Below, in pieces: positions 2,454 through 47,511 of a stretch of DNA of 64,000 nt. The notes under the pieces are model-generated. The model saw only the letters and a list, made by a program, of their open reading frames with translations, had not been told where the DNA came from and made no database searches. Position 1 is the first letter of the stretch; each line of letters starts with the position of its first letter. This DNA is from Subtercola boreus. Its GTDB lineage: Bacteria; Actinomycetota; Actinomycetes; Actinomycetales; Microbacteriaceae. A program made the position numbers and the translations under genes. The DNA lies in assembly GCF_006716115.1 (NCBI RefSeq), contig NZ_VFOO01000001.1, positions 1,426,001 through 1,490,000 of the forward strand, in the 5' to 3' direction.

Positions 2454-3764
2454 CTAGTCGCGGGGGAAACGGGCCGCAACGGCCTCGGCGTGCGCGGGGA
2501 GGTTCTCGCTCGTGGCGAGGGCGTGGATGCGCTCCGCCACCGCGCCGAGCGCCTCGCGGTCGTAGCGGATGATCTGCTGGGGCCGCAGGAACGTGTACGC
2601 CCCGAGGCCCGACGAGAACCGCGACTGTCCGCCGGTCGGCAGCACGTGGTTCGACCCGGCGAGATAGTCCCCGAGGCTCACCGGCGAGTACGACCCCACG
2701 AAGATGGCGCCGGCGCTGTGGATGCTCGCCACCACCTCGTCGTCTGATGCCGTCTGGATCTCCAGGTGCTCGGGCCCGTACGCGTCGCTGAAGCGGGCGG
2801 CCGCGGCGAGGTCGTCGACCAGCACGACGGCGGACTGCTGCCCGTTCAGCGCAACGAGTACGCGCGCCGAGTGCGGCGTCGCCGCGGCCAGACCTTCAAG
2901 TTCAACTCGAACCTCATCCGCGAATGCGGGGGAGGTGGTGACCAGCACGGCGGCTGCGAGTTCGTCGTGCTCGGCCTGGCTCACCAGGTCTGCGGCCACA
3001 AAACCGGGGTCGGCCGTCTGGTCGGCGATGATCAGGATCTCGGTGGGCCCGGCCTCCGAGTCGATACCGGTGCGGCCCCGCACAAGGCGCTTCGCCGCCG
3101 CCACGTAGACGTTGCCCGGGCCGGTGATGATCTGCACGGGCTCGAGCCCGAGGTCGGCGACGCCGTACGCCAGGGCGCCGATCGCCCCCGCTCCACCCAT
3201 CGCGTAGACCTCGGTGATGCCGAGCAGGCCGGCGGCCCCGAGGATGGTCGGGTGCACGCGCCCGCCGAACTCCTTCTGCGGGGGTGACACCAGCGCGATC
3301 GACGGCACTCCGGCGGCCTGCGCCGGCACCACGTTCATCACGACGCTCGACGGGTAGACCGCTTTGCCGCCGGGCACGTAGAGCCCGACCCTGTCGACCG
3401 GCTGCCAGCGCTGCTCCACGATCGCCCCGTCGCCGAGCGACGTCGACGCGGCGGGCGGGATCTGCGCAGCCGTGGCCTGCCGCACACGCCCGATGGCCCC
3501 TTCGAGAGCGGAGCGTACATCCGGAGCCAGCGCGGCGACCGCATCGTCGATCTCGCTCTGCGGAACCCGGATGCTCGGAGCCTCGCCCCCGTCGAACCGG
3601 GCCGCCTGCGCGCGGAGTGCCGCGCTGCCCTCAGCCCGCACGGCCTCGATCAGCGCCGAAGCCGCCTCGGTCGCGACCCCGACGTCGGTCACCGCCCGGG
3701 GTACGAGGTCGAGCAATTCGGCACGCGACGGGTTCGTTCCCCGCAAGTCAATGGTCTGCATCAT
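2454..3764 (-). CDS. hisD: Histidinol dehydrogenase
   Basis: Zinc enzyme carrying out the last two steps of histidine synthesis, L-histidinol to L-histidine with two NAD+. At 436 residues it is full length. Visible are the NAD-binding stretch with GPGNVYVAAAKRLV, the SEAGPTEI loop, the SQAEHDELA catalytic/zinc region and AYGPEHLEI with the catalytic Glu-His pair. Two adjacent ATG codons (3764 and 3761) are possible starts. Other his genes are not in the window but may lie elsewhere. A 56 bp palindrome separates it from dnaE upstream. Confidence 0.95.
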   Translation of the reverse strand: MMQTIDLRGTNPSRAELLDLVPRAVTDVGVATEAASALIEAVRAEGSAALRAQAARFDGGEAPSIRVPQSEIDDAVAALAPDVRSALEGAIGRVRQATAAQIPPAASTSLGDGAIVEQRWQPVDRVGLYVPGGKAVYPSSVVMNVVPAQAAGVPSIALVSPPQKEFGGRVHPTILGAAGLLGITEVYAMGGAGAIGALAYGVADLGLEPVQIITGPGNVYVAAAKRLVRGRTGIDSEAGPTEILIIADQTADPGFVAADLVSQAEHDELAAAVLVTTSPAFADEVRVELEGLAAATPHSARVLVALNGQQSAVVLVDDLAAAARFSDAYGPEHLEIQTASDDEVVASIHSAGAIFVGSYSPVSLGDYLAGSNHVLPTGGQSRFSSGLGAYTFLRPQQIIRYDREALGAVAERIHALATSENLPAHAEAVAARFPRD

Positions 3765-3820
3765 GGCCCCCCGATTCTACCGGCCCGCCTGCGGAGCCCA
3801 CCGCGCGCCTCCACCACAAT

Positions 3821-3876
3821 CGAGTGGGCGATTTGGGCCCCATAAATCCCATTTTGGGGCCCAAATCGCCCGCTCG
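3821..3876. repeat. Palindromic element family 1, intergenic copy
   Basis: Arms 3821-3841 and 3856-3876 (21 bases each) pair with one mismatch around a 14-base loop. The core of each arm is GGGCGATTTGGGCCCC or its complement. It lies between the dnaE stop and hisD, where it could also act as a terminator for dnaE. Two closely related copies lie inside ftsQ at 13603-13664 and 13718-13777, which marks it as a dispersed palindromic repeat and not only a terminator. Confidence 0.8.
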
Positions 3877-3889
3877 AGGGAAAACGGGG

Positions 3890-6800
3890 TCAGAGCAGGC
3901 AGGCGGGGCCGAGGAGGGACTTCAGTTCGCCATAGAGATCGGCCGTGACGCGAACCCGGTACGGGATCTCGAAGACGCGCGCCGTGCCGCCCTTGAGGAG
4001 CTTCAGCCGCACCTCGTTGTCCCCGGAGTGCCTGATCAGCACGTCGTTCAGCGCCTGAACCGTCTCCGTCGTCGCGCGGGCGTCGGCCATCGAGATCTCG
4101 ATCGGCCCTCCCCCGTCGGCGTTCCCGAGATCTGGCGTGAACAGGCTGAACGCGTGCAGGTTCATCCCGTCGTCCCGGATCGACACCCGCCCGCGCAGCA
4201 CCACGATCGAATCGTTCGTGAGGGCCGGCGAGAACTCCTGGTACGCCTTGCCCATGAACATGGCCGTGACCTCGCCGCCGAAGTCCTCGACCACGATCGA
4301 GCCGTACTGGTTGCCCGAGTTCCGGGCCACCCGGTGCTGCACGTTCGTGATCAGCCCGGCGACCACCACCGTGTCGCCGTCGGCGGTGTGCTCACTGGTC
4401 AGCATGTCCGTGATGGTCGTCGACGCGTGTTTCGCCAGCGCCACTTCGAGCCCGGCGAGCGGATGATCGGACACATAGAGCCCGAGCATGTCGCGCTCGA
4501 ACGCCAGCTTGTCGCGCTTCGACCACTCCGGCCGGTCGGGTACCTGCCGGTTGTCCTGCGGGGCATCCCAGAGCGAGTCGAAGTCGAAGCCGACCTGGCC
4601 GTTCGCCTCTGCCCTCTTCTCGCTCACAGCCGCTTCCACAGCGGATTCGTGGATCTCGACGAGCGCCCGCCGCGTGTCGCCGAGCGAGTCGAATGCCCCC
4701 GCCTTGATCAACGACTCGACCGTGCGCTTGTTGGCAGCGGCCAGCGGGATCTTCTGCAGGAAGTCGTGGAACGACGTGAAGGCTCCCTTCGTCTTCCGCG
4801 CCTCGATGATGTGGTCGACGACCGAGAAGCCCACGTTCCGCACCGCGCCCATACCGAACCGGATGTCCTCGCCGACGGCCGCGAAGAAGCCGATCGACTC
4901 GTTCACATCCGGCGGCAGCACCGTGATGTTCATGCGCCGGCACTCGTTCAGGTAGATCGCCGACTTGTCCTTCGAGTCCCCCACCGACGTGAGCAGCGCC
5001 GCCATGTACTCGGCTGGGTAGTGCGCCTTGAGGTACGCGGTCCAGTACGAGATGACGCCGTACGCCGCGGAGTGCGCCTTGTTGAACGCGTAGTCCGAGA
5101 AGGGCAGCAGGATGTCCCACAGCGTCTTGACGGCCGCGTTCGAGTAGCCGTTGTCGTTCATCCCCTTCGAGAAGCCCTCGTACTGCTTGTCGAGCTCCGA
5201 CTTCTTCTTCTTGCCCATCGCGCGGCGCAGCAGGTCGGCCTGGGCGAGCGTGAACCCGCCGAGCTTCTGCGCGATCGACATGACCTGCTCCTGGTAGACG
5301 ATCAGGCCGTAGGTCTGCCCGAGCACCTCCCGCAGCGGCTCCTCGAGTTCCGGGTGGATCGGCGTGACCTGTTGCAGCCCGTTCTTCCGGAGCGCGTAGT
5401 TGGTGTGCGAGTCGGCGCCCATCGGGCCCGGCCGGTAGAGCGCCAGGATGGCCGAGATGTCTTCGAAGTTGTCGGGCTTCATCAGCCGCAGCAGCCCACG
5501 CATGGGCCCGCCATCGAGCTGGAACACCCCGAGGGTGTCCCCCCTGGCCAACAGTTCGTAGGCCGGGACGTCATCCAGCTCCAGCTCTTCGAGCACCGGC
5601 CGGAACCCGCGGTTCGACTCGATGTTGTCGAGCGCGTCGTCGATGATCGTGAGGTTGCGGAGCCCCAGGAAGTCCATCTTGATCAGTCCGAGCGACTCGC
5701 AGGCCGGGTAGTCGAACTGCGTGACGATCTGGCCGTCCTGCTCGCGCTTCATGATCGGGATGATGTCGATCAGCGGGTCGCTCGACATGATCACACCGGC
5801 CGCGTGCACGCCCCACTGGCGCTTCAGGTTCTCGATGCCGACGGCCGTCTCGAACACCGTGCGGGCCTCGGGGTCGGCTTCGATGACGGCGCGCACATCC
5901 GACGCCTCCTTGAACCGTGGATGCGCGGTGTCGAAGATCCCGGAGAGCGGGATGTCCTTGCCCATGATGGGCGGCGGCATGGCTTTGGTGAGCTTCTCCC
6001 CCATACCGAAGGGGAAGCCGAGCACACGCGATGAGTCCTTCAGCGCCTGCTTGGCCTTGATGGTGCCGTAGGTGACGATCTGGGCGACGCGCTCGTCGCC
6101 GTACTTCTCCGTCACGTACTTGATGACCTCACCACGGCGCCGGTCGTCGAAGTCGACGTCGAAGTCGGGCATCGAGACGCGATCCGGGTTCAGGAACCGC
6201 TCGAAGATCAGGCCGTGGCGGATCGGGTCGAGGTCGGTGATGCGCATCGCGTACGCGACCATCGAGCCGGCACCGGAGCCACGGCCCGGGCCCACCCGGA
6301 TCCCGTTGTTCTTCGACCAGTTGATGAAGTCGGCGACCACCAGGAAGTAGCCGGGGAACCCCATCTGCACGATGACGCCGACCTCGTAGTCGGCGCGGGC
6401 GCGCACGTCGGAGGGGATGCCGAGCGGATAGCGGTCGACGAGCCCCTTCTCGACCTCCTGAATGAACCAGGTGTCCTCGGTCTCGCCGGCCGGCACCGGG
6501 TAGCGCGGCATGTAGCTCGCCGAGGTGTCGAACTTGACCTCGCAGCGCTCGGCGATGAGCAGCGTGTTGTCGCAGGCCTCCGGATGATCGCGGAAGATCT
6601 GCCGCATCTCCGCCGCGGTCTTCAGGTAGAACTCGTCGGCGTCGAACTTGAACCGGTTCGGGTCGCTGAGCGTCGACCCCGACTGCACGCAGAGCAGCGC
6701 GGCGTGGGATGTCGCGTCATGGGCGTGGGTGTAGTGCAGGTCGTTCGTGGCGACGAGAGGCAGGTCGAGCTGCTTCGCGAGCCGCAGCAGGTCACCCATG

Positions 6801-7411
6801 ATCTGGCGTTCGATGCCGAGCCCGTGGTCCATGATCTCGGCGAAGTAGTTCTCCCTGCCGAAGATGTCGCGGTAGTCGGATGCCGCCTTCACCGCCTCGT
6901 CGTACTGCCCGAGGCGGAGGCGCGTCTGAACCTCACCCGACGGGCATCCGGTGGTCGCGATGAGGCCGTTGGAGTACTGCGCGAGCAACTCGCGATCCAT
7001 TCTCGGCTTGAAGTAGTAGCCCTCGAGCGACGCCCGCGAGGAGAGCCGGAACAGGTTGTGCATGCCGGCCGTGTTCTCGCTGAGGAGCGTCATGTGCGTG
7101 TACGCACCCGACCCCGACACGTCGTCGCGCCCGGAGTTCGGGCCGCCCCACTTGACGCGGGTCTTGTCGCCACGGTGCGTACCCGGCGTGATGTAGGCCT
7201 CGGTGCCGATGATCGGCTTGATCCCGGCGTCTGTCGCCGTCTTCCAGAAGTCGAAGGCACCGAAGACGTTACCGTGGTCGGTGACGGCAACCGCGGGCAT
7301 CCCCTGCTCGACTGCGGCTTCGATCAGGGGTTTCACACGTGCAGCACCGTCGAGCATCGAGTACTCGGAATGCACGTGGAGATGAACGAACGAATCGGCC
7401 GCGGGTGACAA
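3890..7411 (-). CDS. dnaE: DNA polymerase III alpha subunit
   Basis: Main replicative polymerase. The 1173 residues match actinobacterial DnaE1. The N-terminal PHP domain begins at once (FVHLHVHSEYSMLDGA, about 8-23). The polymerase core carries PDFDVDFDD with the catalytic aspartates and GPGRGSGAGS. The fingers hold FNKAHSAAYG, and the HhH and OB-fold regions follow (VVVAGLITNVQHRV near the C-terminus). The start is TTG at 7411, chosen because GGAGAAG lies 5 bases upstream and the PHP motif starts at residue 8. It is preceded by the RluA-type gene and followed by a palindrome. Confidence 0.96.
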   Translation of the reverse strand: MSPAADSFVHLHVHSEYSMLDGAARVKPLIEAAVEQGMPAVAVTDHGNVFGAFDFWKTATDAGIKPIIGTEAYITPGTHRGDKTRVKWGGPNSGRDDVSGSGAYTHMTLLSENTAGMHNLFRLSSRASLEGYYFKPRMDRELLAQYSNGLIATTGCPSGEVQTRLRLGQYDEAVKAASDYRDIFGRENYFAEIMDHGLGIERQIMGDLLRLAKQLDLPLVATNDLHYTHAHDATSHAALLCVQSGSTLSDPNRFKFDADEFYLKTAAEMRQIFRDHPEACDNTLLIAERCEVKFDTSASYMPRYPVPAGETEDTWFIQEVEKGLVDRYPLGIPSDVRARADYEVGVIVQMGFPGYFLVVADFINWSKNNGIRVGPGRGSGAGSMVAYAMRITDLDPIRHGLIFERFLNPDRVSMPDFDVDFDDRRRGEVIKYVTEKYGDERVAQIVTYGTIKAKQALKDSSRVLGFPFGMGEKLTKAMPPPIMGKDIPLSGIFDTAHPRFKEASDVRAVIEADPEARTVFETAVGIENLKRQWGVHAAGVIMSSDPLIDIIPIMKREQDGQIVTQFDYPACESLGLIKMDFLGLRNLTIIDDALDNIESNRGFRPVLEELELDDVPAYELLARGDTLGVFQLDGGPMRGLLRLMKPDNFEDISAILALYRPGPMGADSHTNYALRKNGLQQVTPIHPELEEPLREVLGQTYGLIVYQEQVMSIAQKLGGFTLAQADLLRRAMGKKKKSELDKQYEGFSKGMNDNGYSNAAVKTLWDILLPFSDYAFNKAHSAAYGVISYWTAYLKAHYPAEYMAALLTSVGDSKDKSAIYLNECRRMNITVLPPDVNESIGFFAAVGEDIRFGMGAVRNVGFSVVDHIIEARKTKGAFTSFHDFLQKIPLAAANKRTVESLIKAGAFDSLGDTRRALVEIHESAVEAAVSEKRAEANGQVGFDFDSLWDAPQDNRQVPDRPEWSKRDKLAFERDMLGLYVSDHPLAGLEVALAKHASTTITDMLTSEHTADGDTVVVAGLITNVQHRVARNSGNQYGSIVVEDFGGEVTAMFMGKAYQEFSPALTNDSIVVLRGRVSIRDDGMNLHAFSLFTPDLGNADGGGPIEISMADARATTETVQALNDVLIRHSGDNEVRLKLLKGGTARVFEIPYRVRVTADLYGELKSLLGPACLL

Positions 7412-7468
7412 ATCTTCTCCGACTAGCTAGGGGTTGAGGTCACCAGTTTAGCCGGAGCCCGCCGACAT

Positions 7469-8389
7469 TCAGTCGGCCCGCAGCGTGTCGAGGGCGTGCT
7501 GCAGGTCGGCCGGATAGGTCGACGCGAACTGCACGTACTCCCGCGACGCCGGATGCACGAACCCGAGCTTCAGGGCGTGAAGCCACTGCCGGCCGAGCCC
7601 CAGCCGGGCCGAGATCGTCGGATCGGCGCCGTACATCGCGTCCCCCACGCAGGGGTGCCGCTGTGCGGCCATGTGTACGCGGATCTGGTGGGTGCGGCCC
7701 GTCTCGAGGTGGATCTCGAGCAGTGACGCGCTCGGGAAGGCCTCGATGGTCTCGTAGTGGGTCACACTCGGCTTGCCAGAGGCGACAACGGCGAACTTCC
7801 AGTCCGAGCGCGGGTGGCGACCGATCGGCGCGTCGATGGTGCCGGCGAGCGGATCCGGGTGTCCCTGCACGACGGCATGGTAGATCTTGTCGACCTCGCG
7901 GTCGTGGAAGAGCCGCTTCAGCCAGGTGTAGGCGTCCTCGCTCTTCGCGACGACCATCAGCCCGCTGGTTCCGGCGTCGAGGCGGTGCACGATCCCCGCG
8001 CGCTCCGCCGCGCCAGACGTGGAGATGCGGAAGCCCGCGGCGGCGAGGGCGCCGAGCACTGTGGGGCCCGTCCAGCCGACCGACGGGTGCGCGGCGACGC
8101 CGACCGGCTTGTCCACCACGACGATGTCGTCGTCGTCGTGGATGATCGTGAGATTCTCGACCGGGGTCGGTTCGACGCGCAGCTCCTGTTTGGGGGCCCA
8201 GCTCACCTCGAGCCAGGTGTCACGGCGCAACCGGTCGGACTTGCCGGCGACGCGTCCGTCGACGCTCACTCCACCGGCCTCGACCACGTCGGCGGCGAAG
8301 CTGCGGGAGAAACCCATCAGCTTCGCCAGCGCCGCATCGACCCGTTGGCCGTCGAGACCGTCGGGCACGGGCAGCTGTCGGGACTCCAT
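7469..8389 (-). CDS. RluA family RNA pseudouridine synthase
   Basis: Converts uridine to pseudouridine in rRNA, probably 23S (RluD-like; inferred from the neighbourhood, since it follows lspA in many bacteria). The 306-residue protein has an N-terminal S4 RNA-binding domain ([22 protein letters not shown]). The catalytic domain carries [15 protein letters not shown] with the catalytic aspartate, and a [12 protein letters not shown] motif near the C-terminus. A longer frame opens at 8413, but the ATG at 8389 lies one base after the lspA stop and matches the family start. It probably sits in one transcript with lspA. Confidence 0.92.
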
Positions 8390-8390
8390 G

Positions 8391-8993
8391 TCAGTCGGTC
8401 TTCTCTGCGGCATCCACTCGCGCGGCGCGCCGACCGTCGAGCCCGACGCCGCGGATCGTCAGGATGAGGAACACGACCATGGCCGCGCAGATGGCCGTGT
8501 CGGCGAGGTTGAAGATGGCGGGCAGAATCGGGATCTTGATGAAGTCGACGACGTGGCCGACGCCGAACCCCGGCTCACGGAACAGCCGGTCGACGAGGTT
8601 GCCGAGGACTCCCCCGAGCAGCAGCCCGAAGACCATGGCCCAGCCGATCGACCGGATGCGCCGGGCGAACCAGACGATGAAGACCACGACGGCGGCGGCG
8701 AGGATCGAGAAGATCCAGGTGTAGGCGTTGCCGATCGAGAAGGCAGCACCCGAATTGGTCACGTAGAAGAACTGCAGCAGATCGCCGAGCACGGGAACGT
8801 ACTCGTTCAGGGGCAGATTGGCGACCACGAGGGCTTTCGCCCCCTGGTCGACCCCGAGGACGACAACCGCTACAAGCACGAGAACGACCAGTGCGCGAGC
8901 ACTGATCGTTCTCGGTCGGCCCTCGGCCGGTGTCACCTGTGAGGTGTCGCCGATGTCAGGGGCGTGGGCTGTCGCCTCGTGCTCAGGCTCCAA
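8391..8993 (-). CDS. lspA: Lipoprotein signal peptidase (signal peptidase II)
   Basis: Integral membrane aspartyl peptidase that removes signal peptides from prolipoproteins, such as the one predicted at 55805. Four hydrophobic segments are visible. The conserved boxes are [12 protein letters not shown], the NSGAAFSIG box, [11 protein letters not shown] and [21 protein letters not shown], which include the catalytic aspartates. The frame opens with TTG at 8993, overlapping the divIVA stop by 11 bases and giving 200 residues. GTG at 8936 is an alternative start that would remove a poorly conserved N-terminus. Confidence 0.93.
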
Positions 8994-9642
8994 AGCCCTG
9001 GAGGCTGGACGCCGGAGCGCTCTCGCCGGAGGAATCGAGGTCGCGCAGCTGGCCCTCGATGTAGCCGCGCAGCTTCTGGCGGTACTCCTTCTCGAAGGTG
9101 CGGAGCTCGTCGATGCGGTGCTCGATGCCCGCCTTTTCCTGGTTCAGCTTCGCCAGTTCGGTGCGCTGCTTCGCCTCAGCCTCAGCGACGAGGCGGTTGG
9201 CCGTGGCCTGGCCTTCCTCGATGAGCGCGGCGCGCTTGTCCGCGCCCTCCTTGACGTGCTCGTCGTGCAGGCGACGGGCGAGCTGCAGCAGGCTGGTCGT
9301 GCTCGCGGCGTCTTCGGGGTCTGCCACCGTGCTCGATGCGGCAGCGGCGGGCGCCGCGGCGACGGGCTCGGGAGCGGGCGTCTCGTCGATCGTCTCGACG
9401 ACGGCCGTCTCCTCGCTGACCTCTGCGGCGGGCTCTGCCGGTGCAGCCTCTTCGCTGGCGGCAGCAGCGGGCGCAGCGCTCGGCACGATGCCCTTGCGCA
9501 GCTCTTCGTTCTCGGCAATCAGGCGACGAAGCTCAACCACGACCTCGTCGAGGAAGTCGTCGACCTCGTCCTGGTCGTATCCGGCCCGAAACTGGGTCTG
9601 CGAAAACCGCTTGTTAACAACTTCTTCCGGAGTTAACGGCAT
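8983..9642 (-). CDS. divIVA: DivIVA/Wag31 polar growth and division scaffold
   Basis: Coiled-coil protein that binds curved membrane at poles and septa and directs polar wall growth in actinobacteria. The N-terminal membrane-binding domain is clear (MPLTPEEVVNKRF, then YDQDEVDDFLDEVV). A variable Ala/Glu/Pro-rich linker (about 55-110) leads to a second coiled coil (about 115-205). The 219 residues are in the family range. It has its own 98-base upstream gap and an AAAGGTGG ribosome-binding site. It is the last morphogenesis gene of the dcw run before lspA. Confidence 0.93.
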   Translation of the reverse strand: MPLTPEEVVNKRFSQTQFRAGYDQDEVDDFLDEVVVELRRLIAENEELRKGIVPSAAPAAAASEEAAPAEPAAEVSEETAVVETIDETPAPEPVAAAPAAAASSTVADPEDAASTTSLLQLARRLHDEHVKEGADKRAALIEEGQATANRLVAEAEAKQRTELAKLNQEKAGIEHRIDELRTFEKEYRQKLRGYIEGQLRDLDSSGESAPASSLQGFGA

Positions 9643-9740
9643 GTTCTTCCACCTTTATTACTTGTGACTGTCTGAGCGAGCCAGACACGGTCTAGGGAAC
9701 GTTTTGGCGTTTCAGCACCTACGATACATGCGACACCCGA

Positions 9741-10052
9741 TCATCCGGCAATCACCCGCACGTAACTGGCGACGGAGAGCAGGATGATCACCAGCAGCAT
9801 CACGATGGTCCAGCCGAAATCGAAGGCGACGGGCCCGATGCGGAGCGGCGGGATGAGCCGCCGGAAGAACCTGATCGGCGGGTCGGTCACCGTGTAGGCC
9901 ACCTCGGCCAGCACGAGAACAGGCCCCTGGGGGCGCCACTGCCGCTGGAAACTCCGGACGAGGTCGAGGATGAACCTGCCCCACATGACGAAGAAGAACA
10001 GCAGCAACGCCAGATAGACGACGGTCGCGATGATTGCTACGAGTGAACCCAC
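9741..10052 (-). CDS. YggT family membrane protein
   Basis: A 103-residue protein with two hydrophobic segments (about 3-25 and 75-100) flanking a polar loop with VTDPPIRFFRRLIPPLRIGP, the YggT signature. Its exact role is unknown. In Gram-positive bacteria it commonly lies between sepF and divIVA, as here, which suggests a part in septum or membrane organisation. It starts with GTG 7 bases after the sepF stop, so it is probably translated from the same transcript. Confidence 0.9.
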   Translation of the reverse strand: MGSLVAIIATVVYLALLLFFFVMWGRFILDLVRSFQRQWRPQGPVLVLAEVAYTVTDPPIRFFRRLIPPLRIGPVAFDFGWTIVMLLVIILLSVASYVRVIAG

Positions 10053-10059
10053 CCGTCAA

Positions 10060-10614
10060 TTATGACTGGACGAAGAAGGAAGATTCTGTACGAGTGTCGG
10101 TCTGGGCCTCACCCGACACCGAAACGTGCGCCGGGGAGAGCAGGAACACCTTGCTGGTGACCCGTTCGATCTTGCCGTAGAGGCCCTGCGAGAGGCCACC
10201 TGCGAAATCGATGAGCCTCCGCGCGTCGGCATCCGTCATCTGCGACAGGTTGATGATGACGGGGATGCCCTCACGGAAGCTCTCGGCGATGATCTGCGCA
10301 TCTTTGTACTGCTTCGGGTGGACGGTGAGGATTTCATTCATTTCGAGCGGAGCCGCCTCTGTGTGAGTCGTGGTTCGACGGAGTGGGGTGACAGGCGCGC
10401 GACCGGCGTTCGACTCCGAGCGGTTCGACTCGTGGCGATTCGAATCCGCGCGGGAGCTGTGCTCGCGGGCGGGGGCGACGGCGCGTTCCACCGGGGCCTG
10501 GGCCGCCTGCGGGTGGGCGACGTGTGCGACAGGGGCCGCCTGCGCCTGGTCGTAGTCGAGTTCTTCGTCGGCAAGCCCGAGGTAGACCATCGTCTTGCGT
10601 AGTGGATTGGCCAT
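10060..10614 (-). CDS. sepF: Cell division protein SepF
   Basis: Membrane anchor and bundler of FtsZ; in actinobacteria, which lack FtsA, SepF is the main tether. The 184-residue protein begins [18 protein letters not shown], the family membrane-binding helix. A disordered linker rich in Arg/Ser/Asn follows (about 25-90), then the globular FtsZ-binding domain ([19 protein letters not shown], then [19 protein letters not shown]). An open frame extends 106 codons further upstream, but that part has shadow composition and the ATG at 10614 gives the conserved N-terminus. Confidence 0.94.
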
Positions 10615-10654
10615 GTCTTCCTCCGGGTTGGATGTACGGGTGCCTACGTAGAGA

Positions 10655-11401
10655 TTAACCGCGCGCGGGCCTGATTCCGGTGATTGCGGAACCGATCCGT
10701 AGGTGTGTCGCGCCCTCGGCGATGGCTTCGGCGAAGTCGTTCGACATACCCGCGGAGAGGGCGGATGCCCGGGGAAAACTCCGCCGCACGTCGTCCGACA
10801 CGGCCCGAAGCTCCGCGAAGGCCCGGCGCGGATCGCCGTCGTTCGGTGCCACTCCCATGACCCCCCGGAGGTCGAGCCCGGGGAGCGTTCCGATGTGCTC
10901 GGCGAGGGCCACGGCATCCTGCGGCAGAACACCGCCCCGGTCGGGATCGGCCGTGAGGTTGACCTGCACGAAACATCCGATCGCCCGCCCCTCAGCCGCC
11001 CGTTCCCCAGAAGCGAGGAGGTCGGCGAGCGAGGCCCGGTCGAACGAGTGGATGACCGATGCGTATTCGGCGACCTGCCGGGCCTTCTTGCTCTGCAGCT
11101 GCCCGATGAAGTGCCAGGTGATGCCGAGGCCGTCGAGCTCTGCCGCCTTCTCCCGCGCCTCCTGGTGCCGGCTCTCGCCGAAGTCGGTCACGCCGAGGGC
11201 AGCCAGTTCGCGGAGGAGGGGTATGCCGTGGAACTTCGTGACGACGATCAGCGTCAGTTCGTCGACGCTCCGGCCCGAGGCGCGTGCCGCCTCGGCGATG
11301 GATGCACGGACGAGGGCGAGCCGACCCGGAAGGTCTGGCCCGCCCTCGTTCGGCGCTGGTGTCTCGGCGATGGGTGTTGCCTCGTGCTGCTGGCGCGACA
11401 G
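10655..11401 (-). CDS. YggS family pyridoxal-phosphate protein (start codon unclear)
   Basis: PLP-binding homeostasis protein of the YggS/PLPHP family. The conserved PLP-lysine motif VVTKFHG lies at about 11231-11245. It is followed by [21 protein letters not shown], and the C-terminal [12 protein letters not shown] and [11 protein letters not shown]. The puzzle is the start. Between the ftsZ stop (11402) and GTG 11191 this frame has no ATG, GTG or TTG, and GTG 11191 would cut off the PLP lysine. Non-standard candidates are CTG at 11401, directly after the ftsZ stop and in its frame, and ATC at 11371, which has GAGG 8 bases upstream. The interval given is the longest reading. Confidence 0.75.
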
Positions 11402-12628
11402 TTACTTGAGGAAGTCGGGGACGTCGAGGTCGGAGTCGTCGTCGTCGGACGCCGGGTCGAGCTGGGCCGTTCCCGTGAGGCTGTGCTCCGGGTTCTGCGC
11501 CCAGGACGCTGCCGAGGACTGCGGTTCCTCGGGGCGATCGCGGCGGGTCTGCGGCGCAGCGGCTGAGGCGCTGCCGCCCGAAGCCGATCCCGAACCCGAA
11601 CCCGAACCGGCTCCGGCGAAGAGGTCGCTGGCGTCGTTCGGCACGGTGAAGCCGCGCTTGGCTGCCGCGTCGGCAATCGTCTCGGCCGTGTCGAAGCCCG
11701 CGGCGATGACGGTGACCCGCACCTCGTCGCCCAGGGTGTCGTCGATGACGGCACCGAAGATGATGTTCGCCTCGGGGTGCACCGCGTCCTGGACGAGCTT
11801 CGCGGCGTCGTTGATCTCGAAGATGCCAAGGTTCGAACCGCCCTGGATGGACAGCAGAACGCCGTGGGCGCCCTCGATGCTCGCCTCGAGGAGGGGTGAG
11901 GCGACGGCCAGCTCGGCGGCCTTGATGGCGCGGTCGGCTCCCCGTGCCGACCCGATACCCATGAGGGCCGATCCTGCACCCTGCATGACGCTCTTGACAT
12001 CGGCGAAGTCGAGGTTGATGAGGCCGGGGGTGGTGATCAGGTCGGTGATGCCCTGAACACCGGCGAGCAGCACCTGGTCGGCCGTCGAGAACGCCTCGAG
12101 CATGCTGATGCCGCGGTCGCTGATCTCGAGCAGGCGGTCGTTCGGAACGACGATGAGGGTGTCGACCTCGTTCTTCAGGGTCGCGACACCGTCTTCGGCC
12201 TGGGCCATGCGGCGCTTGCCCTCGAAGCCGAACGGCTTCGTGACGACACCGATGGTGAGCGCGCCGATCGACTTGGCGATGCGGGCGACGACGGGCGCGC
12301 CACCTGTTCCGGTGCCACCACCCTCACCGGCGGTGACGAAGACCATGTCGGCTCCGGCAAGGGCCTCCTCGATCTCTTCGGCGTGGTCTTCGGCGGCGCG
12401 CCGGCCGACCTCGGGGTCGGCTCCTGCGCCGAGCCCGCGGGTGAGCTCACGGCCCACGTCGAGCTTCACATCGGCGTCACTCATCAGCAGCGCCTGGGCG
12501 TCTGTGTTGATGGCGATGAATTCGACTCCGCGAAGGCCGAGTTCGATCATCCGGTTGACGGCATTCACGCCGCCGCCACCGATGCCGACCACTTTGATCA
12601 CGGCGAGGTAGTTCTGGTTCGATGTCAC
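11402..12628 (-). CDS. ftsZ: Cell division GTPase FtsZ
   Basis: Tubulin-like GTPase that forms the Z-ring. The 408 residues carry [15 protein letters not shown] near the start, INTDAQAL, the tubulin signature [13 protein letters not shown], and FADVKSVM of the T7 loop region. A low-complexity Ser/Gly linker ends in the conserved tail DVPDFLK, which binds SepF and FtsW. The GTG start at 12628 has GGAGG 6 bases upstream. The 163-base gap to ftsQ is AT-richer than its surroundings near 12660-12700 and probably holds a dedicated ftsZ promoter. Confidence 0.97.
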
Positions 12629-12791
12629 GTCCGGCCTCCGGGTCTCAAGCTCAAGTTGAGAGTTAATGTTATGCTGAGTATGTATTTCTTGTGATCAACT
12701 TAGGCGGGATGCGGCGGGGTGGCCGTAACGCGCTTGGCGTGTCGGATGTTGCATCCGAAAACTGGCGCGCGCGATCAGGCGCAGAGTCGGA
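12629..12791 (-). promoter_or_regulatory. ftsQ-ftsZ spacer, probable ftsZ promoter region
   Basis: This is one of the larger gaps in the dcw run. The part nearest ftsZ (about 12650-12705) is clearly AT-richer than the flanks. On the minus strand it contains TTGATCACAAG followed by TACATACTCAGCATAAC, which can supply -35-like and -10-like elements. An imperfect palindrome with arms CTCAA and TTGAG lies at 12644-12660. Assignment of exact hexamers is a guess; the composition and position are the support. Confidence 0.35.
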
Positions 12792-14009
12792 TCAGCCGGA
12801 GACGACGGGGCTCTCGGGACTCGACACGTCGTAGGTGATCGACTTCTCGGCGTTCTGGGTGCCGATCAGCTTGTCGAGCACCAGCGCCTTCAGGGAGGAG
12901 TTGGCTTCGCTCCCCCAGACCACTTTCTGCCCGCCACCACCGAGCGTGAACATCACCGAATCGGGCGTCGCGGCGCTGATGGTGTCGACCTTCGCCAGCA
13001 GGTCGGCCGGCATCGAACGGAGCACCGCCGCAGCACCCAGGAAGCCGGGGCTGCCGACAGCGGATGCCGTCACGTCGATCACGGGAAATCCGTCGGGCCG
13101 GGCATCGCTGTGCGACATCACCACGCCCGCGGGGTCGACGAGGTCGAACCCGCCGGCGGGCACAGCGACCGAGCCGACGGGCTGGCGTTCGACGATGCGC
13201 ACGATCAGGGTGTTCGGGAGGGACGACTCCGTCGAGTAGCTCTGGATGAGAGGGAAGGCGGCGAGCTCGGACTCCATCCGCCCGAAGTCGACGAGGGCGA
13301 GCGGGCGCCCGACCTGGTCGGCGAGGGCCGCCTGCAGCTGTGCGGCGTCGAGGCGGGAGGTGCCCTGCACGGTGATGGAGCGCACGGCGAAGACGGGCGA
13401 GTAAGCCGTGAAGAGCACGACGAGAACCAGAGCCGCGACGGCGCCGAGCGAGACCAGCCAGGTGACGCGCCGTCGGCGGCTCCGCTCCGTGAAACGCCGG
13501 GCCTCGAGGCGCTCCACCCGGCGGCGGCGGCGTTCGGCCGTGCGCAGCACGCTCCGCGCGCTCCGCCCGCCCGCGCCCGCCCCCGCGTCTGCCTCTCTCC
13601 CCAATCGAGTGGGTAGTTTGGGCCCTTCCCGGCCAATTTTGGGGCCCAAACTGCCCACCCGATTGTCAGTGGGTGGGGTGGATGCTGCGAGCGGGGTGGG
13701 TGGGGTTGGTGAGGTGGATCGGGTGGGCAGTTTGGGCCCTTCAGGGCCGGTTTTAGGGCCCGAACTGCCCACTCGATTGAGGGTGGGTGGGGGGGATGCT
13801 GCTGGTGGGATGGATGGGGCGGGCTGGGGTGGCTTCACTCGCGTCATGAGAATGGGCGGAGTTGCGGGCGCGGGTGGCGCATCGGACGTCGCTGGCGCGC
13901 CTGGTCGGCGTTTCGGCGCAGCCGAGGGCGCGGGCGGGGCGGGCGGGCGCGGGGGCACGACCGGAGTCGGCGGCGTGGGCGGCGGGGTTACTCCGTTGGG
14001 CCTCTTCAT
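12792..14009 (-). CDS. ftsQ: Cell division protein FtsQ with palindrome-derived N-terminal insertions
   Basis: Bitopic divisome protein. The core is ordinary: a membrane segment at about 185-206 (TWLVSLGAVAALVLVVLF), then the POTRA domain (VRSITVQGTSRLDAAQLQAAL) and beta domain (RIVERQPVGSVAVP). What is odd is the roughly 180-residue cytoplasmic N-terminus, rich in Pro/Ala/Thr. It contains two copies of a 20-residue segment (about 78-97 and 116-135), each beginning NRVGS and ending GPKLPTR. Each is encoded by a copy of palindromic element family 1. The start ATG at 14009 lies 12 bases after the murC stop. Confidence 0.92.
   Translation of the reverse strand: MKRPNGVTPPPTPPTPVVPPRPPAPPAPSAAPKRRPGAPATSDAPPAPATPPILMTRVKPPQPAPSIPPAASPPPTLNRVGSSGPKTGPEGPKLPTRSTSPTPPTPLAASTPPTDNRVGSLGPKIGREGPKLPTRLGREADAGAGAGGRSARSVLRTAERRRRRVERLEARRFTERSRRRRVTWLVSLGAVAALVLVVLFTAYSPVFAVRSITVQGTSRLDAAQLQAALADQVGRPLALVDFGRMESELAAFPLIQSYSTESSLPNTLIVRIVERQPVGSVAVPAGGFDLVDPAGVVMSHSDARPDGFPVIDVTASAVGSPGFLGAAAVLRSMPADLLAKVDTISAATPDSVMFTLGGGGQKVVWGSEANSSLKALVLDKLIGTQNAEKSITYDVSSPESPVVSG
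13603..13664. repeat. Palindromic element family 1, ftsQ copy A
   Basis: Arms 13603-13625 and 13642-13664 (23 bases each) pair with two mismatches around a 16-base centre. It is read in frame in ftsQ and encodes residues about 116-135. Sequence and arm structure match the intergenic copy at 3821-3876 and copy B at 13718-13777. Confidence 0.85.
13718..13777. repeat. Palindromic element family 1, ftsQ copy B
   Basis: Arms 13718-13739 and 13756-13777 (22 bases each) pair with two mismatches. It encodes residues about 78-97 of FtsQ in the same reading frame as copy A. The two copies are separated by about 53 bases of Pro/Thr/Ser-coding sequence. Confidence 0.85.
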
Positions 14010-14021
14010 CGGCGGCCCACG

Positions 14022-15518
14022 CTATGCGTCGCGCCCGAGCTCGGCGGCGGGCGCGGTCGCGCCGGGTACAGCGGCGGCAGGGTTCGCGGCGGGAGCAGCG
14101 GCAGCAGGGGCGGCGGCGGGGGTCACGGCGAGCGACGCGAGCAGCTGCGGCACGATCAGGTTCACGTCACCGCAGCCGAGCGTCACCACGAAGTCGCCGG
14201 GGCGGGCGATCGACGCGGTGAAGTCGGCCGCCTCCTGCCAGTCCGCGATGTAGGCCACGTGTGAGGAATCTGCGAAGCGCGACGAGACCGTCTCGCCCGT
14301 CACCCCGGGAACCGGGTCCTCCCGCGCACCGCACACGTCGAGCACCACGGTGAAGTCGGCCGTGCGCTCCAGGGTCTCCGCGAATTCGCCCGCGAGCAGC
14401 TGGGTGCGGCTGTAGAGGTGCGGCTGGTGCACCGCGATGATCCGGCCCTCGCCGACGACCGTGCGCGCAGCGGTCAGTGCGGCATCCACCTCCGTCGGGT
14501 GGTGCGCGTAGTCGTCGTAGACGCTGACGCCCCGCACCGTGTCGTGCAGTTCGAAGCGGCGGCCGGTTCCGTCGAAGGGAGCCAGGGCATCCAGAGCCGC
14601 TGCCGGCTCGAAACCCAGCCCGACGAGCACCGCGAAGGCTCCCGCCGCATTCAGGGCGTTGTGGATGCCCGGCACCTGCAGGCTGCCCGAATACGTCTCT
14701 CCGAGGTAGTCGACCGCGAACGCCACGTTGCCGGTGGCGACGACCGAGTGCAGGCGCACATCCGCAGAGGAGGCGAACCCGAACGACAGCACCCGCGACG
14801 CGGTGAGCCGCGATCCGACCCGCAGGGCCCCGGCGTCATCGGAGGAGATCACCACGAGCTCGGAGGCCTCATCGGCGAACGACACGAAGGCGTCTTCGAC
14901 GGCCTCGACCGAGCCGTAGTGGTCGAGGTGGTCGGGGTCGACGTTGGTGATGAGCGCGACGGCCGTGTCGTAGAGCAGGAAGGAGCCGTCGGATTCGTCG
15001 GCCTCCAGCACGAACAGCTCGCCGTCGCCCCACGCCGAACTCGTGCCGAGGGCGGAGATCACCCCGCCGTTCACGAAGCTGGGTTCGGCGCCGAGGCCGA
15101 GCAGGGCGGTGACGATCATCCCGGTCGACGTGGTCTTGCCGTGTGCGCCGGCAACGGAGATGAGCCGGCGGCGGTTCACCAGCCAGGCGAGCGCCTGCGA
15201 CCGGTGCAGCACCGGCAGGCCGCGCTGCTGGGCGAGCACGAGTTCGGGGTTGTCGGGCCACAGCGCGCTGGTGACGACGAGCGTGTCGGCGTCGCCGAGG
15301 TTTGCGGCATCATGGCCGACGTGCACGGTCGCACCGAGCGCGCGGAGCTTCTCGGCGGTCTTCGAGTCGGTGCGGTCGGAGCCCGTCACGGTGACCCCGG
15401 CCGCCAGGAACAGGCGAGCGATGCCGCTCATTCCGGCGCCGCCGATGCCGACGAAGTGTACGGCTCCGAGTTCTGCCGGGATCTCGAGGGACATATCGGG
15501 TTTGATCACGCTGGGCAT
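14022..15518 (-). CDS. murC: UDP-N-acetylmuramate--L-alanine ligase
   Basis: Adds the first amino acid to UDP-MurNAc in the cytoplasm. The 498 residues show the N-terminal nucleotide fold ([17 protein letters not shown]), the Mur-ligase ATP loop [11 protein letters not shown] and [12 protein letters not shown]. The C-terminal domain carries [10 protein letters not shown] and [12 protein letters not shown], typical of MurC. The last about 35 residues are an Ala/Pro-rich tail ([17 protein letters not shown]) not needed for the fold. It lies between murG and ftsQ in the standard dcw order. Confidence 0.96.
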
Positions 15519-15543
15519 CCTGTCGTTCTGCGAATAGACAACG

Positions 15544-16695
15544 TTACGCGCCCTTCAGCGCTTGCTCGATCAGGTCCACGGTGCGGGCCGAACCGTCGGT
15601 GACACCCGCGCCGAGCGCCGCCGCCGCCATGGTGCTGATCCGGCTGCGGTCACTGAGCAGCGGCAGAAGGGATGACCGGATCCAGTCCGGCGTGAAGTCG
15701 GCGTCCCGCACCAGCACGGCCCCGCCCGCGTCGACCAGGTCGACAGCGTTGAAGCGCTGTTCGCCGTTGCCGACCGCGTACGGCACCAGCACCGACGGAA
15801 CACCGAGCGCCGCCAGTTCGGAGACCGTCGCCGCGCCCGCGCGGGAGACCGCGAGGTCGGCCACCGCGAGGGCGAGCTCCATACGGTCGCAGTAGCGGAG
15901 CATCCGGTAGCCCGGGATGCCCGGATCGACGAGCTCCGACCGGTCACCGGTGATGTGCAGCACCTGCCAGCCGGCAGCCACGAGGTCGGCTGCGGCGGCG
16001 AACACGCTGCCGTTGAGCTGCGCCGCGCCGAGCGAACCGCCGGTGACGAGCAGCACAGGGGCGTCGCCCCGGAGGTCGAAGAGGGCGAGGCCTTCGGCGC
16101 GCGCCGCGGCGAGGGGCAGCGCGGCGGAATCGGGCGCGAGCGCACCGCCGGGCGTGGCATCGCCGGGCATGGCCGCGGCCGGCCGACCGGCCAGCGCCTG
16201 GATCTCGCGCCGGAGCGGCATCCCCACGAACCGCCCGTGCGGCAGCACTCCGGCGCGGAAGGCGAGGCCGACGTACGGCGTGAAGCGCGCACCCAGCCTG
16301 TTCGCCAGGCCCGGGCGGGCGTTCGCCTCATGGATGACCAGCGGCACCCGCGCGCGCCGCGCCGCCAGGTACGCGGGAGCTGCCGCGTAGCCGCCGAATC
16401 CGACGACCACGTCGACGTGACGCTCGCGGATCAGCCGGGCGAGGTCGGCGATGACGCGGCGGAGACCGGCCGGGAACGCGGCCGCCGCGCGGTTCGGGCG
16501 CCGGGGGAACGGGAGTTTCGGGATCGTGACGAGCTCGTAGCCGCGTTCCGGCACGAGGCGCGCCTCGAGCCCGGTCGCGGTACCGATGACGACGATCGTC
16601 GCTTCGGGGTCGCGACGGCGCAGTTCGTCGGCCGTGGCGAGCAGCGGGTTCACATGACCCGCCGTGCCGCCGCCGGCCAGGAGGTAGGTCGTCAC
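15544..16695 (-). CDS. murG: MurG, lipid II-forming GlcNAc transferase
   Basis: Membrane-associated glycosyltransferase that transfers GlcNAc to lipid I. The N-terminal [13 protein letters not shown] loop and the C-terminal [34 protein letters not shown] and GEQRFNA motifs are clear. The frame is open for another 145 codons upstream, but GTG at 16695 gives the family N-terminus ([12 protein letters not shown]) and overlaps the ftsW stop by GTGA. The product is 383 residues, close to the family length. Confidence 0.95.
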
Positions 16696-47387: not shown

Positions 47388-47426
47388 CCCGCCCCCCGCC
47401 CCGCGCGGCGCCCCCACACGAACGAA

Positions 47427-47474
47427 AGGACGCCAACTGCTCGAAAATGGGGGCTTTCGAGCAGTTGGCGTCCT
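47427..47474. terminator. Perfect 20-base inverted repeat between convergent genes
   Basis: Arms 47427-47446 and 47455-47474 pair without mismatch around the loop ATGGGGGC. It lies between the convergent TRIC-like and HtrA-like genes and has no T-run. The length and perfection exceed a usual terminator, but no second copy was found in the window. Confidence 0.65.
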
Positions 47475-47511
47475 CTCGAATCGATTCGGCGCACCGCTGG
47501 GGGTGGGGGGG

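Follow-up and report, generated by a model that had tools for sequence, protein, structure and literature searches.

The window, a 64-kb stretch of DNA, comes from a 4.2 Mb genome of Subtercola (Microbacteriaceae), hereafter G000. It contains ftsQ, which is flanked on the minus strand by genes that we take from their translations to be murC and ftsZ. Two palindromes of about 60 bases had been described within ftsQ in the initial annotation, read in the same frame as similar peptides of about 20 residues and placed ahead of an intact FtsQ core. Both inverted repeats are present, and their positions as first recorded were correct to within a base (Table 1). The arms of copy I3 are 24 nt long, 92% complementary, and separated by a 16-nt spacer; those of copy I6 are 23 nt long, 91% complementary, and separated by 14 nt. 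The two copies share one frame on the minus strand of ftsQ, which yields NRVGSSGPKTGPEGPKLPTR and NRVGSLGPKIGREGPKLPTR, and both lie within the Pro-rich N-terminus of the protein. Downstream of these segments, POTRA_1 (47.7 bits, cut-off 23) and FtsQ_DivIB_C (25 bits, cut-off 21) were recognised with Pfam. Four palindromes in the window scored at least 16, and none scored 14 or more in four dinucleotide shuffles. RNA folding of the two ftsQ stretches gave -42.6 and -38.5 kcal/mol (z -6.8 and -6.6, respectively). In an Rfam scan of the window, the palindromes had no match, and the mraW RNA motif alone was found (RF01746, 27133-27230, minus strand, 66 bits).

Table 1: Features of the window, with positions counted from its first nucleotide.
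Feature	Position	Context	Reads	Remarks
ftsQ coding sequence, 405 aa	12792..14009	minus strand, between murC and ftsZ		
F1 palindrome, copy 1 in ftsQ (I3)	13602..13665	ftsQ	NRVGSLGPKIGREGPKLPTRL	1+0 mismatches to family stem
F1 palindrome, copy 2 in ftsQ (I6)	13718..13777	ftsQ	NRVGSSGPKTGPEGPKLPTR	0+1 mismatches to family stem
First 102-nt unit (palindrome + flank) of proposed tandem duplication	13604..13705	ftsQ		spacing 114
Second 102-nt unit	13718..13819	ftsQ		82% identity to first unit
Third F1 copy in the window	3820..3877	tandem gap 3' of minus-strand gene (slot B)		
Palindrome of other sequence	47423..47478	between convergent genes	CGAAAGGACGCCAACTGCTCGAAA...	score 21

The palindromes are placed inside ftsQ because the upstream start is taken as the real start. 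This start was checked because the available text of PMC3733652 warns that many intragenic REPs at N-termini may be misannotated starts. As contrary evidence, our ad hoc gene caller placed the ftsQ start at 13550, downstream of both palindromes. The word MKRP[NG] opens the FtsQ reading in G000 and in three relatives (G010, G008, and G007), and [MVL]KRP, a word searched for deliberately rather than blindly, was present in all 10 genus members with an open reading frame reaching so far. MTRVK, upstream of the palindromes, is common to the same four genomes, with 14 synonymous versus 3 nonsynonymous codon differences; the first 11 ftsQ codons, with 13 synonymous and 12 nonsynonymous differences, were uninformative. 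On the basis of this conservation, we overruled the call at 13550 and regard the upstream start as the probable one. The open frame and the conserved upstream start would make the ftsQ case an in-frame insert in a conserved gene, a trait in common with Rickettsia palindromic elements.

The F1 Family and Its Position Relative to Genes

A lenient scan of 40 fetched G000 loci, covering loop lengths of 15-17 nt, returned 52 copies of the family to which both ftsQ palindromes belong (F1), 48 with a 16-nt centre and 4 with a 17-nt centre. Stem mismatches summed to 0-5 in 51 copies and to 7 in the other one, and about 50 copies were also obtained by BLAST and pattern searches. The ftsQ pair alone lies within a gene in these fetched parts of the genome, and the earlier proposal of a dispersed palindromic element, standing in frame in a probably disordered part of an essential gene, is supported. 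The element is about 60 bp long; its two half-sites, ATCGAGTGGGC(AG/GA/GG)TTTGGGCCC, are inverted relative to each other and enclose a variable centre of 16-17 nt, with the consensus ATCGA-GTGGGCNNTTTGGGCCC-16 nt-GGGCCCAAANNGCCCAC-TCGAT. Information in the half-sites is mostly 1.5-2 bits per position, the dinucleotide being weak, and the inner 8 nt of the centre carry 0.1-0.7 bit. Outside the ends ATCGA...TCGAT, the next 7 positions hold at most 0.4 bit on the left and at most 0.7 bit on the right (48 copies). The flanks of many copies (e.g., at loci L139, L146, and L147) are C-rich on the left and G-rich on the right, which would weakly extend the symmetry.

At up to 3 mismatches, F1 was found in 4 of 12 genus genomes (G000, 48; G010, 32; G008, 10; G011, 6; reversed-pattern controls, 0) and in 3 of 199 Microbacteriaceae genomes, all of them Subtercola, G010 not being among the 199. 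The exact degenerate pattern matched 17 stretches in a genome collection of 84,980 species, from which G000 itself is perhaps absent; all 17 were in G010, G008, and G011. No contig in the viral collection scanned matched the exact pattern, and a viral origin of F1 was rejected on this one collection. The four F1 genomes formed a clade with a support of 0.81 in a three-locus tree, which, like the slot comparison, was based on BLAST-placed loci. At 29 of the 52 G000 sites, F1 stood between both matching flanks in another of the three species. A literature search by titles and abstract openings, in which subscription literature was thinly covered, found no report of the family. Most relatives' genomes are drafts, and the copies at L216, L219, L221, and L187 (in G011 and G010) lie no more than about 80 bases from a contig end; L216 and L221 have long mirrored flanks, and the contig ends are probably assembly breaks at palindromes.

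Placement was determined solely with the ad hoc codon-model gene caller. Convergent gaps held 31 of the 52 copies and tandem gaps 18, 3 copies touched the 3' end of a predicted gene, and no copy was divergent. The ftsQ pair was counted as tandem, since the caller had put it upstream of its late ftsQ start; the other 50 copies comprised 47 in convergent or tandem gaps and the 3 at gene 3' ends. Counted as distinct slots, 27 were convergent, 16 tandem (ftsQ slot included), and 3 touching, 46 in all. The 35 window gaps of at least 40 nt were 5 convergent, 21 tandem, and 9 divergent, and compared with these the 43 F1 slots showed an excess of convergent positions (P ~4e-13; 2e-13 without the ftsQ slot) and a missing divergent class (P 3e-6; 4e-6 without the ftsQ slot). 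The nearest stop codon was at a median distance of 26 nt and at no more than 64 nt in 43 of 52 copies. Eight of the 52 were more than 100 nt from a stop codon, two of these being the ftsQ pair measured from murC, and our confidence in the explanation preferred below was slightly lowered for this reason. The relatives contributed 46 copies (29 from G010, a partial set; 10 from G008; 7 from G011), of which 29 were convergent, 11 tandem (one being that of G010 ftsQ), 1 touching, 5 at contig edges, and none divergent. Around position 104425 of G000 (L126), a predicted gene seems to end inside F1, a possible C-terminal extension by the element.

The commonest F1 stem is species-specific. TTTGG stood on both arms in 36 of 52 copies in G000, 2 of 29 in G010, 0 of 7 in G011, and 3 of 10 in G008, and TTCGG stood on both arms in 1 of 52, 16 of 29, 4 of 7, and 3 of 10, respectively, the remainder being mixed or other. 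Pairing between the arms of G000 copies, determined at 37 positions, was at the level of reshuffled arms, save nominally at -4 (40 of 1000 shuffles) and 13 (23 of 1000, one copy); the arms agreed in the variable dinucleotide in 26 of 52 copies versus 19 expected (P 0.0075). Such pairing does not demonstrate selection on RNA structure, and copy-by-copy covariation in G000 was rejected as proof of an RNA function. Compensatory changes in the spacer were not above shuffles in 48 G000 copies. The 39 copies of the relatives paired above shuffles at positions 10 (0 of 1000), -6 (6), 1 (11), and 18 (24), the last lying in the centre, which we put down at least partly to the mixing of species with different stems. 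The F1 hairpin arises because both arms are one unit in inverted orientation, each half-site being conserved as sequence.

Relationship between the Two ftsQ Copies

The initial annotation had taken the two palindromes as separate insertions. When the element was compared together with 42 nt of flank (102 nt in all), the ftsQ units ranked 2nd of 5304 pairs in identity. The first rank was held by another adjacent pair, 3077393/3077542 (92%), so duplication together with flank recurs in the F1 family. When the 50-nt flank was compared alone, the ftsQ pair ranked 12th of 5356. Since the likeness extends 42 nt beyond the palindrome at rank 2 of 5304, one insertion followed by a 114-bp tandem duplication is likelier, and two independent insertions are not supported.

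Comparison of FtsQ orthologues showed that the F1 segment is absent from most relatives seen. Among the other genus members seen, no FtsQ had the F1 peptide apart from a degraded form in G010, where a single F1 copy with 2+2 stem mismatches stands at the same place; G001 gave no FtsQ match, and the G011 ftsQ contig starts about at the spot. G008, which is joined to G010 in the tree, has no F1 in ftsQ, which calls for either a loss there or an independent gain. In the ftsQ region of G002, G003, G004, G005, G006, and G009, no palindrome exceeded shuffles. Weakly symmetric stretches at the F1 position in G008 and G007, which share CGTTCCACAG, were considered by eye as decayed ftsQ palindromes and are not claimed, the case being statistically unsound: the G007 stretch scored 12.0, within shuffles (maximum 14.5), that of G008 was not the best palindrome of its region, and the best outside match was weak (E 0.04). 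In G010 (L062) and G008 (L063), ftsQ carries another symmetric stretch further downstream, around codons 155-176 and 115-134, respectively, immediately ahead of the membrane segment. It exceeded shuffles in both (14.5 and 13.0 versus maxima of 12.0 and 10.5) and, rather than the degraded F1, was the best-scoring palindrome of the G010 ftsQ 5' region.

Comparison with Known Repeats and Interpretation

REPs, according to the available text of PMC3733652, lie mainly between unidirectional and convergent ORFs and near stop codons, and within genes too; the word Actinobacteria does not appear in that text. REPINs are inverted doublets whose spacers often carry compensatory changes, as described in the available part of PMC3116915. 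F1 is similarly built from two conserved half-sites in inverted orientation that flank a variable spacer and can form a hairpin, and it is mostly extragenic, convergent or tandem rather than divergent, and near stop codons, as judged by our own gene caller. Tandem arrays that include flank and occasional intragenic copies, also at N-termini, are further points in common with REP/REPIN as those partial texts present them. F1 differs from REPs in its stem of about 20-30 bp, compared with 5-13 bp in a table of PMC3733652. Compensatory spacer changes of the kind that PMC3116915 describes for REPINs were not seen in the G000 centre, and in the copies of the relatives one centre position (18) paired above shuffles.

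A further difference from REPINs is that F1 has no convincing single half-sites. Arm matches at up to 2 mismatches all had a partner 15-17 nt away except one at 638382, and this unpaired match is at the level of controls (2 and 3). A full-length transposon with F1 terminal repeats, as a MITE parent would be, was judged unlikely for want of a convincing unpaired arm. The genes near clustered F1 copies at three loci looked by eye unlike transposases. No GTAG/CGTC tag was found within 12 nt of the conserved F1 ends. REP and REPIN are tied to RAYT transposases, and the families reviewed in the available text come from other phyla. A search for the Y1/RAYT transposase domain PF01797 gave no match in G000 and control matches in 5 of 14 genomes; a recognisable RAYT in G000 was rejected as the F1 mobiliser on this result, and a divergent or lost one would escape such a search.

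The uptake sequences of Neisseria and Pasteurellaceae are short motifs that form inverted pairs at gene ends. F1 resembles their dialects in that related species carry variants of one repeat and differs from them in being a 60-bp palindrome with about 50 copies, not hundreds to thousands.

We put at roughly two in three the probability that F1 is a REPIN-like dispersed palindrome located at gene ends, one copy of which entered ftsQ and was then duplicated as a 114-bp unit. We read F1 as a new REPIN-like variant with a putative mobiliser and a putative function. Copies at gene ends, transcribed from one or both sides, would place a highly stable hairpin at the 3' ends of mRNAs, where F1 might protect transcripts, end them, or both. 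The N-terminal coding part of ftsQ, which is Pro-rich and of low complexity, would have received one copy, probably ahead of the divergence from G010, and this copy would later have been duplicated in the G000 lineage as a unit of 38 codons. The palindrome lacks a stop in that frame, which would be why the frame has remained open. The region of FtsQ concerned is probably disordered, and the segments, presumably translated, would not be expected to have a specific FtsQ function; most likely, FtsQ just tolerates the extra residues. F1 itself would spread, or be homogenised, through a putative factor recognising the half-site as sequence.

The strongest rival is a half-site-binding protein that acts on DNA. 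F1 copies would then be two-fold symmetric sites for a putative protein acting as a dimer or tetramer (a nucleoid, transcription, or recombination factor), maintained by selection, and the species shifts would follow changes in the protein. The conservation of the half-sites as sequence, the degenerate dinucleotide, and the low pairwise covariation in G000 are consistent with such sites, as are the shift between species to TTCGG on both arms and the 29 of 52 positions in common with another species. However, sites of this kind need not avoid divergent gaps or adjoin stop codons; we consider this explanation rather unlikely. It is improbable that the F1 copies are bidirectional transcription terminators that are alike through function alone. 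Terminators would fit the location between convergent genes and the very stable hairpins, but no T-run follows the palindromes, which are flanked by TCGAT and then by positions of low information, and a near-invariant stem in about 50 copies would presumably be unneeded. A terminator scan of 3500-15600 called none, which is a weak test here since the scan requires a loop of 3-8.

The initial annotation had likened the ftsQ pair to Rickettsia palindromic elements, which, according to the available text of PMC10969869, are about 150 bp long, with 44 in R. conorii genes. The likeness holds for the pair itself, a palindrome in frame within a conserved gene, but not for the habit of entering genes, as 2 of 52 F1 copies are genic, and F1 is about 60 bp long. 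REP/REPIN is the closer comparison. A gene-invading element of the Rickettsia type that inserted twice independently would account for two in-frame ftsQ copies with similar peptides of about 20 aa, but 50 of 52 copies lie outside genes or touch a gene 3' end, and the two ftsQ units have 42 nt of flank in common; we regard it as improbable. Ancestral FtsQ sequence with chance symmetry is refuted by the approximately 50 further genomic copies, by the failure of the window shuffles to reach a score of 14, and by the confinement of the F1 peptide, among the other FtsQ seen, to the degraded G010 form.

Other Palindromes at Orthologous Slots

More striking than the ftsQ pair is the occupation of orthologous slots in sister species by palindromes of other families, a feature in which F1 is unlike REPINs. 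Slots A, B, and D were chosen from F1 sites, and all three queried slots are reported; their scores were without a shuffle control of their own, and the window scan, with slightly shorter loops, gave none of at least 14 in four shuffles of 64 kb. At slot A (G000 3846505), a score of at least 14 was obtained in 10 of 12 genomes and a score of 11 in G009, with none in G003. At least five sequence types occupied this slot: F1 in four genomes, AGGTCGAAATCTCTCC (F6) in G007, GATCAC..CGCCCC in G001 and G004, GGAGTCGTTTTCCGCCC in G002, AAAGTCGCCCG in G005 and G009, and another type in G006. At slot B (window 3824), 7 of the 11 genomes with upstream sequence scored at least 11, with F1 in G000, G010, and G011, F6 in G004, others in G005 and G009, and a score of just 11 in G006; the 4 below include G008, which has 202 nt of sequence there. 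Slot D (892701) held a palindrome in 3 of 9 genomes, F1 in G000 and G010 and another in G008, and 6 genomes were without one.

F6 is itself a dispersed family, with 9 sites in G004, 4 in G007, and none in any other genome at up to 1 mismatch (controls, 0). All 4 F6 sites of G007 and 2 of the 9 in G004 fall within a gap that is occupied by F1 in G000, compared with about 2.7% expected per site (P ~5e-7, assuming ~1,700 equal gene-3'-end gaps, a number extrapolated from the window). Of the flanks of the remaining 7 G004 sites, 5 could be located in G000, and synteny extends to both sides in 3 cases; a further palindrome, of the GGGAGTT..GTCG type, stands in 2 of these G000 gaps (scores 12 and 16), and the third has no palindrome. 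One parallel is described in the available text of PMC3733652, namely different REPs at about one recB site in two Xanthomonas. Tentatively, and short of an even chance, Subtercola palindrome families of about 60 bp may compete for the same gene-end slots, the position being kept and the occupant swapped, or rewritten on both arms, by lineage through a half-site-recognising non-Y1 system; the ftsQ 5' region could be one such slot, with F1 in two species and perhaps decayed others in two more.

Two questions that are commonly entangled, the upkeep of a palindrome at a gene end and the spread of a given sequence, would be separable in a REPIN-like actinobacterial system in which no RAYT was detected and whose slots keep a palindrome while the family changes. 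Subtercola offers a ready comparative test, and the ftsQ case would illustrate how a REPIN-like element can become part of an essential protein.

No second copy of the high-scoring palindrome between convergent genes (Table 1) was seen in 802 kb of fetched loci. Further palindromes recur across these loci. Positions 615-685 of the window match a palindromic repeat, F2, which recurs in G000 (L127 and L143) and in G010 (L197 and L204).
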